Positions 26,154 through 33,694 of a DNA stretch of 64,000 nucleotides are shown here, one piece after another. The notes under the pieces are model-generated. The model had not been told where the DNA came from. It did not search any database and saw nothing but the letters and a program-made list of their open reading frames with translations. Both the position numbers and the translations under genes were made by a program. Each line of letters begins with the position of its first letter. Positions within the stretch are counted from its first letter, which is position 1. Origin of the DNA: Amyelois transitella (lineage: Eukaryota; Arthropoda; Insecta; Lepidoptera; Pyralidae); the NCBI RefSeq assembly GCF_032362555.1, contig NC_083507.1:8249001-8313000 (forward strand), written 5' to 3'.

Positions 26154-29100
26154 TCATAATCGTAGCTGAGCCAACTCATGCAATAGAGCTTGTTCGTTTT
26201 CAATCTTGGCTAGTTGGTTCAACTCCAGTTGCTTGCCGGCTGCCTTCTGTTGCTTCAACTTGTCTATGTCACTAAGTTTCTGAAAATGAAGAAAAATTAA
26301 GAAAATTTAAGATCTTTGTCTCGTGACTAATATTGCAAGTAAATATACAATTTCATTCATTCATTAACAATAAAAAGGTCGTGCAGTCTGCTTATTACCG
26401 AACATTGACAATACATATGTCTCATTTTCACTCTTTCTGTCACTTCCTATAATCAAATACAAATTCCTTGCCCAAGTTTGCAAAATATACGCCACGCCTT
26501 TTTGTCCTGGGGTTTCCCAAGACAGAAATTCGCGGAGTAAAGAAAGTTGGAGTAAAGAAAGAAAAGAGTTAAGGCTATTATCTATAATAAGTATTCCTTT
26601 CACTTAACAATCGTTACCTTATTGATGTTCTTAATTTTCTTATCAGTTTCCGGATCGCCAGTAGAGACGAACGCGGGTCGCGGTAAGGCGGGGGCGGGGG
26701 CGGGGGCGGGCGCGTCGCCGACTCCTTGCGCGCGCTCTTCTGCCTTGCGCTCTTTACGTGCTTCGCGCTTCTGCTTCTGCTTCAATGCTTGTTTCGACGG
26801 CGCAGCTGCAGAGTTTAATTACAAAAGGCTCAAATCCTCGCTCTGGAGACATCAGCAGTTTCCAATTTTAAATAAGTAATTTAATCACCGACACAACAAT
26901 TATCTTAAAAGATTTACCAAAAAAGTGTTATAAAAAGCTCAGCTTTCTATTATTAGTAATTTTCAAACAAGCACGTGGACGCATAAACTGATGACGGACG
27001 AGGCGAAACCTGAACCCCAAAAAATAAAGGAAACTTACCAGAGGAACTTTCTCCCGGCTTATGTGGCTTCTCATGTTCATGTAACGTGAAGGTCGACGGT
27101 TTATTCCTAGCCCCGGGCGGCCTGTAAGCGCCTACTGCTTTAGGAGTGGAATCCTCGATGCCTTTAGGAACAGTCTTCGATAGTTCACTCTTTGGGTAAC
27201 TGCCTGGGCGGTAGCTGATCGCCAGGAGGTTTTCTTTCTCTTGACACACCCGCTTGTGCATAAGAACGCCGGTGTAGTGCCAGATTTTGTAGCTATAAAA
27301 ATAAATAATTTGATAAGGTCAGTTATAAAGTTTGCATTTGTTAGAGTTCTCTTTCCAACCTTTTTATTCTCTTTATCCGATCGGCCCCATGAACAGTATT
27401 TAGACCATTATTATTATTCTTGACGCCAAGCCAGGATTTCTTCGACCTGCCACTTTTCCCTGAACCCAGCGCAGGCGTTGGGGCAGACATTAGTTTGCCA
27501 GACAGTCTGTAGGTTTCCGCAAAATATATGGCCGTACCAGCATGCCTATGTCACGGATGTGTAGGCTGCCACGAATAAGGAAACTAATTATTAATATAGT
27601 AATGCTATATTAAAATATCGTACCCGTTCCCGACTGTCAGTCTTGGATAAGTAGTCGCAGTAAGAAAGGTTTCCCCTCTTGGGTCCCATTGTAAGAAAGT
27701 AGAGTCGGGCGCCGCACAGGACCCCAGTTTCTTGTAGCCGCGCATGTCCCATATTTCTATGTTACCACCAGCTATGTTTCCGAATCCGCCGATTAGGAAG
27801 TGTACAATGGAGTTAAAGATTTTACAGGACTTATAAAGGAAAAATAAATAGAAATATAAATTAAAAAAAAAGTTATGTAAGTTCGAATGCGACCTATTTT
27901 AAACATAAAGACAATAATAGTTTTAAGCGTCCGCCATCTCGGTCGTTCTGCCTATTAGTGTTATGAGAACATCTTCTATATATAGTATATATATCTATAT
28001 ATAGTATATATACCTATACTCGTACTATACATTCAGTCAGAAAAGTATCGGGAATGGATTATTTATTTATGGTTCCAAATTCAAATTTTTGTTTTTTTTG
28101 TTGTTGTTAGATTGGCACAACTGTTTTCCATTTTGGCGCGGAGTTTGAGTTGCATCTGTTGTTTACATTAAATACAGTGCTATTTTTAGTTATATCATAT
28201 CTAGTGTGTATTGCTAATTTCATAATGGATAAAAACATCGAACAAAGAGTTTGTCTTAAATTTTGCATTGCCAATGGAATATCGTGTTCGGAGTCACTGA
28301 AAATGTTACAGAAGGCTTACGGTGAATCGACTTTATCAAAAACTCGTGCTTATGAGTGGTACAAAGCGTTCAAAAGCGGTCGAGATGTGATGGAAGATTT
28401 GCCTCGCTCTGGTAGGCCATCAACGTCTGCAACTGAAGTTAACATCGCAAAAGTGAAGGAAATAGTGACTGAAAATCCTCATTCAACTTTGAGAGAGATA
28501 GCCACCGAACTTTCTGTATCTCACGAATCGATCCGTACCATTTTAACTAATAATTTGGGTATGAAACATGTTGCCGCTCGGCTAGTCCCAAAAGACCTGA
28601 ATTTTTTTCAAAAACTCAATCGCATGAGAGTCGCTGAGGACATGCTAGAACGAGTCAATTCCGACCCAACATTCATGAAACGCATTGTTACTGGTGACGA
28701 GACGTGGGTTTACGAGTTTGACATGCAAACTAGTCAACAAGCTTCGGAGTGGCGCCTTCCAACTGAACCGAAACCGAAAAAACCACGCCAAAGTCGTTCA
28801 AAAGTCAAAGTCATGTTAACTGTTTTCTTTGACTATCGCGGTGTTGTGCACTCGGAATTCTTGCCGGAAGGTCAAACGGTAAATAAGGAATATTATTTGA
28901 GTGTTATGCGGCGTTTAAGAGAGCAAATCCGACGAAAAAGGCCAGATTTGTGGAAAGAAAATTCTTGGATTTTGCACCATGATAAAGCACCTTCGCACAA
29001 GGCCATCATTGTGAACGAATTTTTAACCAAACACTCAACAAATACCATCGAGCAACCACCATATTCACCAGATATGGCTCCAGCCGACTTTTTTCTTTTT

Positions 29101-32100
29101 CCTAAACTCAAATCCCAACAAACATTTAGGCGACGATTAGAGCTTATTTTGTTACTTAGTGGGCTACAAAGGCATTACAGTAGCAACACTTATGACTATT
29201 GGCGATAAAGTGGCGTACCAAGTAACGTATATCACTTCTACTTATAATACAGAGTTACAAGCGCGACAATTAGGCGAGCTTAAAGGTTATGGATGTATTA
29301 TGGCAAATCTTAACACTGTTGTACATGCACAGCATTTTGTGTTATAGCTTTAAGTGAATCTTAGAACTCTAAGATCTAAATAAGAATAAGAATTAGCTAC
29401 TACCTCCAAAAGTGCTATGCAGGTGATAATAAACTCTTTACAAGAACCTAAAGTTGCACAATAGCGTTAATAAGCGCTACCAGCCTTACAATAGTGTTTA
29501 TTTAATCTTATATAGAACCAAATGCTTGAAGTTATACAAAACCCTCTTGCATTACCTTAAGTCAAATAGGAGTATAATTTTTCGCTATAACAGATCCTAT
29601 AGCGACTATTGTTACTTTTTTGTGACTAAAGGTAAAGTAATAGCGCTTAAGGTCACTACTGTATTTCTTATATTGACTACTTGTTTTTGACAATGGCGTC
29701 GCAACCAAAATAAACAAAAATTGTTGTAAATACGTGGAAAAGTTTTCAGTAAATAGACAACATACATCGGGCGCTCGAATTATTTGCCAATAAATATGTA
29801 ACATATTCACAGTGTACTTCCCTTCGCAGCAAAAATATGCTTCCTTTCTCACCATACAATATCACTTTTTGTTGTTTAATATAAAAATCATTAGTCGTAA
29901 ATTTATAGCCATTGAAAATAAAATTATTTATTATTAGATCACAAAATTAGTTTAATTATCTTGAATAGCGTTCAGACCGTTACAAAACACCTCCCTTTTA
30001 GCGCTTGAAAATATAATTAACGCCTTTGTATCTCTACTGTACCGCTTAAGGAGTCCGTTGACGCTTATTTACCCCTCTTGTATCGCTAAGAGATCCTGTT
30101 ACCGCTATAATAACTTTCTTATAGCACTAATTGTACCTCTTAGCCAATTACCATAACTCTTGTATACCGTCATTATACAACCTTAAGTAATATAAAAATT
30201 GTGCCCAATTCGGGGGTAAAGTAGGGTTAGAGCGCGCTCTAACACTAATTTGTTACACCCATAAACCACTTTAGAATCTAGTTAGCGCTTTTATAGACTT
30301 ATTATAAATCTTACTTTAGCGCCTAATTGTTACTTGGGATTACCACTTCGTGGCACCCGTTTTCAATCGGTAGAAGACATAAAAGAGAATTCGCGGCGAG
30401 AACTGACCTCAATTCCGGAAACAGCGTTTAAAAAATGTTTTGATGATTGGATTATTCGTTGGCGTAAGTGTATCGTTTCTAAAGGAGCATATTTTGAAGG
30501 TGATAAAATAAATTTGGATGAATAACAAACAGTTTGTGTATTATTGATCTTTTCCTGCTACTTTCTTGACAGAGTAGTATATATATATATATATATATAT
30601 ATATGTCTGATATCGGAGGATCAGTATCCTCCGATATCAGACATACATTGGTATAAATATTACGACACAGTTGTCGTAATATTTATTCAGATTTGTTTAA
30701 TTAATCCAAATTCGGCGTTAACAAAACGTACTATTCTTAGACATTTTCAAAGGAGTGACCACAGTCTTTATCCTTCAAGTCTCAAATTGAGATTCACGGC
30801 AGCGAAGCCCGGTCTAATATCGACATAGAACATTATTATTAATGTACCTCATGTTATTAAAATTCTCAGCCCAATTATACTCAGTACAATATTGAAAACT
30901 ATCACAAAAAGGATATGATTTCCTTCAGGCGGGAAGTATATCGAGTTCCAAGCGCCCGTCCCGAACTCGTATAGCGGCTCGCACTTGGCATTAAAGAGAG
31001 TAGCCTTGGCTGGCGCGTGGCCGTACACCGCCACCCACTCGTTAGAATTGCTGGGGTTCCAGGCTAAAGAGTGGATCGGGCCTTCCTTGCCTGCAATAGA
31101 AAATACACACACCTCTTCACCAGTTACAGAGTATACAGTAATTTTTTTTTACTTTCAAGCCATGTTTGTCTAAATGGCTGAAAAATAGAATTGAGATTCA
31201 GAGATAGTGATAACTTTAAAGAAATATTGTTTGTTATGTTGGCGTGTGAGATGGACGGACATGAAAGTATAGAATTTGGAACAGGCACAAGACATGCTGC
31301 TACCTGCCTGCTATCAATTTTAATTCGCGGCCCGATCCGGCAGTGCACACAGTTTTATGTTATTTTCCAAAGATTTATCATCAGTAATATATTTTAGAAA
31401 TAATTGGACAAAAGTGTGTAATAGGTACGTACTGAATGTCATGTTTCCGGATTTCCCTTTTACGTCACCGTGTGATAATGATTGCTTTCCGTAATACGAT
31501 CCACCAGTCTTGTCTACCTGAAATTAATATGTAAAAGTCAGTCTACGTATGATCATTAAAAATCTCTTTCGCCTGACAAAGGTCTGACGAAATTACATCG
31601 CCTACATAAAAATAATTGATTGCATTGCACTTTTAATTATATGAAACTCACATCTGTCTGAGTCAGGACGAACACATTAGTGCCCCGTCGGTTCCAGTGG
31701 AAGGCGGCTTTGTCGGCCTGGAACGAGGACCGCGTGATGACAGCATGGCCGCTGTCAAACTGAGGGAACCTGAACACGCGCCACACAGAGGGCTGTCCTT
31801 GCTTACCTTGAATTAAAAATAAACTATTGGTTTATAAGTTGCCAGTAAAACATGATAATAGTAAAAAATTTACTAATTCTTTTATAATATTTTTGGCTAT
31901 AAAAGACTGGTCATCTCTTTAAAAAATAAAATATTTCCTTTTTTTCTTAAAGCAAAATGCACTATGTAACATAACATAATATACCTTGTGTTACTGACTG
32001 ACTAAGTGGCTGATGACAACATATCTATTGAGTTTGGTTGAAATTTTGGTCCCTGTTTTTCAAAAGTGTAGGGGAGTACCTATACCTGAACTTTCCAGGG

Positions 32101-33694
32101 AATTTTATTTCTTGATCTAAATGATAAAACACTCACCTAATGTAAACACTGCTATATAGTAATTGGGTCCTGGACTTGGTGAAAAGCTGAATGACTTAAG
32201 TTTCTCCTCTTGTATATTATATGTGTAGCGATCTAACTGTCCATTTTCATATAATAGTATCCTGTTGTTTGCTTGGATGGCAAACAACTTCTCATCTGAT
32301 GACCATTGGGGTTCCCTGCAATATTTATTTAATGAAATTTAAAATTATACATGCATTTTATTTAAAATTGAATTGAATGTGGCTTTATAACAGAGTTGCA
32401 AACAAACTTTACTTGTTGCGAAAAGATTTGGGAGAGTTCTACAATATGATATCAGTGGCTGGCTCAGTCAGTCAGTGTTTAGTTTTAAAATATATACATA
32501 TATAAAGTCAAGTCTATATTTCTTGCTGGTAGACAGAGCCAACGTCTTGAAAAGCTGAACATGAGCTGAACAGCTCAATGGTAGAATTGAGATTAAAAAA
32601 GTGGGAGCTTGCTAGCCCATTACCAACATGAATCCCAAGTTTAGAAGCCTTTCTTTAGTTACCTTAAGCAACTAAAAATTTAGTTTTAAAAGTAAGCAAT
32701 TGAAATGTAAGTACCATCCAGTCTGATTCTTCTGAGTAAATGAACCCACAACTGCACCAGTATCAGATTTGTAAACATGGAGATTTGGTTTTCCCTGTAA
32801 TTAAAATAATATTCATGTAGTCCAAAGTTACTTCATCAACTATTTAACAATATTGCACGCCATCACATCATTACAGTAAAGTGATTATATCACAAATACA
32901 AGTTATTTAAGCTTATTAAAAAAAGAGCAAGCTCTGCTGGAATTTAACCTAAATATCATTCGATATTAACTTTTTTGTGAAATTACTATTCCTATTTATT
33001 GGATATTATAAACAAAGATGAAGCAGACAAATCACACAGATTGACTTAGCCTCAATATAAGTATGGAAAGTGTACTACATACTTACTTAATATAACTTAA
33101 TTTATGAACTTACCTTCAATAAAACTAAAAAATATTTTAAGTACCTGTGGGTTTTCTTTTGTCATAGCAAACAGTTCCCAAACCATGAAGTAATTATCCA
33201 GAGGAGAGAAGAACATGTCTTTGATATTGCCATTTATGGTAGCTGCCACAGTCCAGTCTGAGCATTTTAAAATTTCTGCCCTAAATGAAAGATGATTATG
33301 TAGAGGTAACTTCTAATGAGAAAATGATTATACCTAAAATTTATGCACTTTATTGGAACTCATAAGGCCAAAAATATTTTTTTACATACCTACTGTCGTT
33401 ATTTTAACTTCTAATTTTGTTTCTTTTATATATTCAAGTACTCACTTTTTATCTGTTCTATAAGCAAGATAGGTGCCTTTAGGACTGTATACGATGCTAC
33501 GTATGTTTGGAGTAGTTTCATCTCTAAGATTTTGTTCTCCAAAAGGCTCTTTAAATTCGACAAGAAATATATTCCTGTTGGTAAGTCCTGGAAAGTAAAA
33601 CATAACCTACATTAAAACATTGCGGAAAGGCAACATGCTAGAGTAAAAATATCTTGATCAGGTTCATACCCGTAATATGCGGTAAAGTACTCAT
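26154..33694 (-). CDS. eIF2A: Eukaryotic translation initiation factor 2A
   Basis: Twelve exons join in frame to 573 residues (human about 585): 33694-33670, 33587-33446, 33280-33145, 32794-32715, 32315-32137, 31806-31652, 31517-31433, 31090-30917, 27801-27624, 27292-27039, 26805-26618 and 26279-26154. The first ~430 residues form the WD-type beta-propeller; recognisable blocks include KEGPIHSLAWN, VYGHAPAKATLFNAKCEP, YEFGTGAWNSIYF, GGFGNIAGGNIEIWD and NGYKIWHYTG. Then comes the conserved AYRPPGARNKP (about 440-450), a basic Lys/Arg/Glu helix, an Ala-Pro repeat and GDPETDKKIKNI (about 520), with a final coiled coil. eIF2A delivers initiator tRNA in GTP-independent, often non-AUG or stress-related initiation. 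All introns are GT-AG except intron 8, which fits AT-AC. The gene shares a divergent promoter region with ARMC7. Confidence 0.95.
28225..30525 (+). pseudogene. mariner transposase (D,D34D), disrupted by insertion
   Basis: Coding parts 28225-29112 (296 codons) and 30340-30525 (61 codons plus stop) are in the same frame once the insertion between them is ignored. ATG 28225 (MDKNIEQRVCLKF) is preferred over the upstream in-frame ATG because it matches the usual mariner start. An N-terminal helix-turn-helix region is followed by RSGRPSTS, LVPKDLN (the WVPHEL position), TGDETW (first D), HHDKAPSH (second D) and YSPDMAPADFF, whose last D is 34 residues beyond the second. No stop or frameshift is seen in either part. 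The C-terminal part (LPLRGTRFQS to INLDE) lies beyond the insertion. The protein cannot be made intact. Confidence 0.9.
29113..30339. mobile_element. 1,227-bp inverted-repeat element nested in mariner, family unassigned
   Basis: Interrupts the mariner between codons AAA (29110-29112) and TTA (30340-30342). Ends are imperfect inverted repeats, TCCCAACAAACATTTAGGCG on the left against TCCCAAGTAACAATTAGGCG (reverse strand) on the right, 16 of 20 alike. There is no target duplication, or only a 2-bp AT depending on where the first base is placed. It has no coding frame. Its interior is rich in TAGCGC/GCGCTA and CTTATAGC/ACCGCT-like short motifs on both sides, like subterminal transposase-binding repeats. 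Probably a non-autonomous DNA transposon. Confidence 0.75.
30576..30604. repeat. (AT)n microsatellite
   Basis: Uninterrupted alternating A/T at the right edge of the mariner. A similar TATATAG-rich tract lies at its left edge (27980-28012). Confidence 0.9.
30602..30645. repeat. Perfect 20-bp inverted repeat with CAGT loop
   Basis: Arms 30602-30621 and 30626-30645 are exact complements around CAGT. Confidence 0.95.
30653..30686. repeat. Perfect 15-bp inverted repeat with CAGT loop
   Basis: Arms ATAAATATTACGACA and its exact complement flank CAGT, the same four bases as in the hairpin 7 nt to the left. Confidence 0.95.
32494..32670 (-). repeat. SINE family A copy, truncated
   Basis: Reverse-oriented: TCTATATTTCTTGCTGGTAG, ACAGAGCCAACGTCTTGAAA and TTGCTAGCCCATTACC are in family order. 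It is in eIF2A intron 4. Confidence 0.7.

Follow-up and report, generated by a model that had tools for sequence, protein, structure and literature searches.

A predicted U12-type AT-AC intron in the eIF2A gene of Amyelois transitella

How is the eIF2A transcript of this moth joined across an intron that appears to begin with AT and end with AC? The original prediction assigned this intron to the minor, U12-type class. We find a consensus 5' splice site, a well-spaced branch site, an ungapped protein, the four minor snRNAs and two control introns in the same genome, all in line with that assignment. Intron 8 of eIF2A is very probably a genuine U12-type (minor) AT-AC intron, with its splicing predicted from the genomic sequence. 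We infer that the eIF2A RNA is joined at 30917/27801, and that the minor spliceosome does the joining.

The exon 8/exon 9 junction of eIF2A

The genome searched is a 327-Mb assembly of 33 contigs, and the window is the whole analysed stretch of 64,000 nucleotides (C3:8249001-8313000). Positions are those of the window unless a contig is named. The eIF2A coding gene lies on the minus strand at 26154..33694, and our gene model has 12 exons, 573 codons and a stop. The product matches two solved eIF2A chains, the human 8dys_A over residues 7-573 (E 2.2e-133) and the S. pombe 3wj9_A over 12-397 (E 1.3e-66). It scores 195.3 bits against PF08662. Ten of the 11 introns have GT-AG ends, with lengths from 82 to 399 nt; intron 8 alone is AT-AC. 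Upstream of eIF2A and on the opposite strand lies a MaoC-like dehydratase frame (PF01575, 35983-36477, plus strand). An NCBIfam scan of three neighbouring frames gave a single match, far under its cut-off.

Exon 8 (30917..31090, minus strand) ends in GAAGGAAATC, as placed by the gene model and by alignment to the two solved eIF2A chains. Exon 9 (27624..27801, minus strand) begins with ACTTCCTAATCGGCGG (ACTTCCTAATC) in the gene model. Intron 8 occupies the 3,115 nt between them (27802..30916, minus strand), is in phase 1 and reads ATATCCTTTTT...TCTTTAACTCCATTGTAC, a U12-type AT-AC pattern. Joining 30917 to 27801 reads PEGNHFLIGGFGNIAGGNIEIW and gives the peptide PEGNHFLIGGFGN, which includes GNHFLIGGFGN. 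The alignment to 8dys_A and 3wj9_A has no gap across this join.

To compare this join with its competitors, we enumerated all stop-free, in-frame junctions with GT-AG, GC-AG, AT-AC or AT-AG ends, with the intron starting at 31000-30701 and the next exon at 28060-27741. This yields 99 junctions: 64 AT-AC, 19 AT-AG, 9 GC-AG and 7 GT-AG. The 30917/27801 join has a score of 516, tied best among the 99. All seven GT-AG junctions score below it; the best of them, which adds 13 residues, reaches 482. The tie partner is a shifted AT-AC register, 30914/27800, which encodes the identical protein; its intron starts with ATCCTTTTT, not ATATCCTT. The protein stays the same in both registers owing to the repeats of AT and AC at the intron borders. 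Hence the claim that only one junction restores GNHFLIGGFGN needs a small correction: the proposed join does give the segment and scores best, but the shifted register equals it.

An intronless eIF2A retrocopy was sought in the assembly with PF08662. None of the four matches is a retrocopy: two are the eIF2A gene itself, and two frames on contig C11 are presumably eIF3B, judging from the eIF3B matches of the eIF2A product in the solved-chain search. The exon 8-9 peptide has no relatives in viral contigs, and its eight pattern matches in genome contigs include no confirmed relative.

Splice-site signals and rival readings

As originally predicted, the intron starts on the minus strand with ATATCCTTTTT at 30916 and ends with TCTTTAACTCCATTGTAC at 27802. 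The 5' splice site (30906..30916) equals the consensus octamer ATATCCTT, a near-invariant U12-type 5' octamer according to Lin et al. (PMC2831892), and the 3' terminal AC lies at 27802..27803. The putative branch site TCTTTAACTC (27810..27819, minus strand) can form nine pairs, one of them G-U, with GAGTAAGGA of U12, leaving one A bulged. Its core TCTTTAAC differs from the consensus TCCTTAAC at one base, which is the G-U pair with U12. Counted from the last intron base, the two branch adenosines are 12 and 11 nt upstream, which bears out the predicted distance of about 11 nt; a review gives 11-13 nt as the optimum for U12-type introns (PMC3584512). As expected of a U12-type intron, no distinct polypyrimidine tract directly precedes the 3' site: judged by eye, the final 11 nt, CTCCATTGTAC, are free of any long tract. 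A tract TTTTTCC lies farther upstream and precedes the AG at 27831-27830.

How easily could such signals arise by chance? The octamer ATATCCTT occurs 7 times in the 128,000 positions of both window strands, the intron 8 site included. A suitably spaced branch-like motif is found at 33 of the 7,246 AC sites of the window, again counting intron 8, with a motif set that was written so as to include the observed TCTTTAAC. If the two are independent, the chance of finding both at a border defined by the protein is about 2.5e-7. Three 10-mers on both window strands pair with U12 as well as TCTTTAACTC does, and TCTTTAACTC is one of them. Genome-wide, a strict short AT-AC intron pattern gives no signal: 13 matches (9 + 4) vs 12 (7 + 5) in a reversed control. 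By themselves, then, U12 motifs are no rarity at genome scale.

The upstream AG brings in a competing pair of sites. A major, U2-type GT-AG intron (30905..27830) could be spliced instead, making both exons longer and inserting 13 residues (GNHILFSCKIFNSIVHFLIGG). The GT at 30905-30904, which had been named in advance as an alternative, does exist and joins in frame, without a stop, to the AG at 27831-27830, where TTTTTCCTTTATAAG would be a plausible acceptor. However, its donor, TTT/GTGATA, is poor: with textbook frequencies it scores -5.75, under all ten other eIF2A donors (lowest -1.62), and on the minus strand between 34000 and 26001 it is equalled or beaten by 234 of the 422 GTs. The 13 added residues would also fall into a stretch that is ungapped against both solved eIF2A chains, and the PF08662 score would drop by 13 bits, from 142.9 for the AT-AC join to 129.8. 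We consider this reading very unlikely. Both pairs of sites could also be used, as in the twintron of Drosophila prospero, and yield two protein forms. The GT-AG pair is indeed nested in frame within the AT-AC pair, and prospero and dUrp provide precedents (PMC3584512). Yet the inner donor is weak, an open stretch of 13 codons easily arises by chance, and 13 extra residues would disrupt a conserved part of the propeller, so that a twintron is highly improbable here. There is similarly little reason to expect its regulated, lineage-specific version, in which minor-spliceosome activity would set the ratio of two eIF2A forms, one with 13 additional propeller residues.

An AT-AC intron need not belong to the minor class, since AT-AC introns of the major type are known (PMC8280824). 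The octamer ATATCCTT and the branch site of intron 8 are nevertheless those of U12 introns. An assembly artefact, in turn, is at odds with a gene that is otherwise intact over 12 exons. As explanations of intron 8, an artefact and the major spliceosome are both extremely improbable.

For the U12-type reading, the predicted course of splicing is simple. U11 would recognise ATATCCTTTTT, and U12 would pair with TCTTTAACTC, leaving one adenosine bulged. In the minor spliceosome U6atac/U4atac take the place of U11; after this exchange 30917 would be joined to 27801, giving GNHFLIGGFGN in the eIF2A beta-propeller.

Minor-spliceosome snRNAs and control genes in the same genome

All four snRNAs named above score over their Rfam gathering scores in the assembly: U12 at 99.1 bits, U11 at 89.5, U4atac at 78.6 and U6atac at two loci, with 76.3 and 74.9. 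The U12 gene of the assembly holds GAGTAAGGA, whose nine pairing positions (one G-U) are with TCTTT(A)ACTC. The 5' end of U11 has AAAAAGG, the complement of CCTTTTT in the intron 8 5' site. Both U6atac loci carry GAAAGGAGAGA, including AAAGGA, the complement of TCCTTT in the same site. One of these two same-core loci may be a pseudogene.

As controls we used three genes that carry an AT-AC intron in the fly according to Lin et al. (PMC2831892, Table 2): syntaxin-6, KCMF1-like and PHB2. Minor-type introns are found in two of the three (syntaxin-6 and KCMF1-like) and are lost in the third (PHB2). The syntaxin-6 intron (C31:9890061-9891194) is 1,134 nt long, reads ATATCCTTTTTT...TTCTTGACTCATTTACTCAA (TTCTTGACTC) and ends AT-AA. 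Its removal gives DTISIVEKN, in agreement with two solved syntaxin-6 chains (1lvf_A and 4j2c_A). The fly intron is AT-AC (PMC2831892, Table 2), and AT-AA is reported as the commonest non-canonical minor intron type (PMC10639083).

The KCMF1-like gene (C19, positions 59-657 of the segment from 5156758 onward) keeps an AT-AC intron with the end AACCTTAACGGCTTCACAC and the motif CCTTAAC; its branch site pairs more poorly with U12 than the branch sites of eIF2A and syntaxin-6. Two tandem U12-like 5' sites lie 12 nt apart: ATATCATTTC, which would give RDLDEPSG, or ATATCCTTTTT downstream, which would add ISFL. They may be an example of a moving 5' site.

The locus at C14:7868553-7869086, which we take to be PHB2, has one uninterrupted reading frame (307 codons, stop to stop) with no AT-AC intron in it. 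A PF01145 search gave ten matches, and eight loci were inspected; the seven besides PHB2 were taken for relatives, not PHB2. In fly and human the PHB2 intron is AT-AC (PMC2831892, Table 2). Since PHB2 is intronless in this frame, retention of minor introns is not the rule.

Transposons in intron 8 and comparison with known minor introns

Intron 8 contains a mariner at about 28027..30583 (plus strand, opposite to eIF2A), with limits taken from the pieces of a second copy on contig C22. The frame at 28111-29205 carries Transposase_1 and a Mos1-type HTH_48; the other piece, 30286-30525, had no match in Pfam. Nested in the mariner is a 1,225-bp element (29114..30338) with ends CCCAA/TTGGG and AT flanking both sides. 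It has at least 39 other near-full genomic copies at 98-99% identity, among the 40 of 1,424 candidates that were scored. The 2-bp flanks are identical in 27 of 29 inspected copies, as target duplications of varied sequence. Some copies are inserted within each other. The C22 mariner matches in three pieces at 99-100% identity, and both the intron 8 mariner and the nested element are probably young.

Together they account for about 2,557 of the 3,115 bp, close to the predicted 2.5 kb, and leave a remainder of about 558 nt. The transposons would then be a recent passenger that lengthens an intron of about 560 nt. We found nothing in support of the further suggestion that the load may tax splicing. 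The insert looks recent, and long insect minor introns are published: minor introns average roughly 200-1000 bp in species that have lost many of them, many insects included, and the median in Hermetia illucens is 4,019 bp (PMC10639083). With minor introns of such length on record for insects, the proposed tax is unsupported, though slower splicing would still be compatible with these observations. What intron 8 offers is a minor intron with its signals kept despite taking up two young transposons. It also carries an annotation warning, as a predictor restricted to GT-AG would break the eIF2A gene or add a false insert.

The intron was first called notable because minor introns are rare in insects. 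This is fair, but the point is modest: translation is already among the functions listed for minor-intron genes (PMC6865273), and a wider survey attributes their functional biases largely to gene age (PMC10639083). Our search of the full-text literature found no paper on a minor intron of eIF2A, judged by title and start of abstract among the matches listed, and a search within the texts of selected papers gave none either; a published database or supplementary list may already include this intron. It is one more case of a well-known class, U12-type introns.

Like other animal U12-type AT-AC introns, such as those within the fly set of 19 U12-type introns (D. melanogaster; PMC2831892, Table 2), intron 8 has the 5' ATATCCTT and an AC end, a branch TCTTTAAC close to TCCTTAAC, and adenosines 11-12 nt from its end. 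Its host differs: eIF2A is absent from that table. The intron was therefore either lost in flies or gained in this lineage. A lineage comparison is informative because only one minor intron gain is reported by Lin et al. (PMC2831892), a gain that a review gives as the sole example known (PMC6865273).

Within the assembly, intron 8 shares its ATATCCTTTTT-type 5' motif and short branch spacing with the syntaxin-6 and KCMF1-like introns. It differs from both, as the syntaxin-6 intron ends in AA and the KCMF1-like intron has two possible 5' sites. In the prospero U12/U2 twintron the GT-AG pair lies within the AT-AC pair. Intron 8 has the same order of nesting, but its inner donor is poor, and use of its nested pair is putative.
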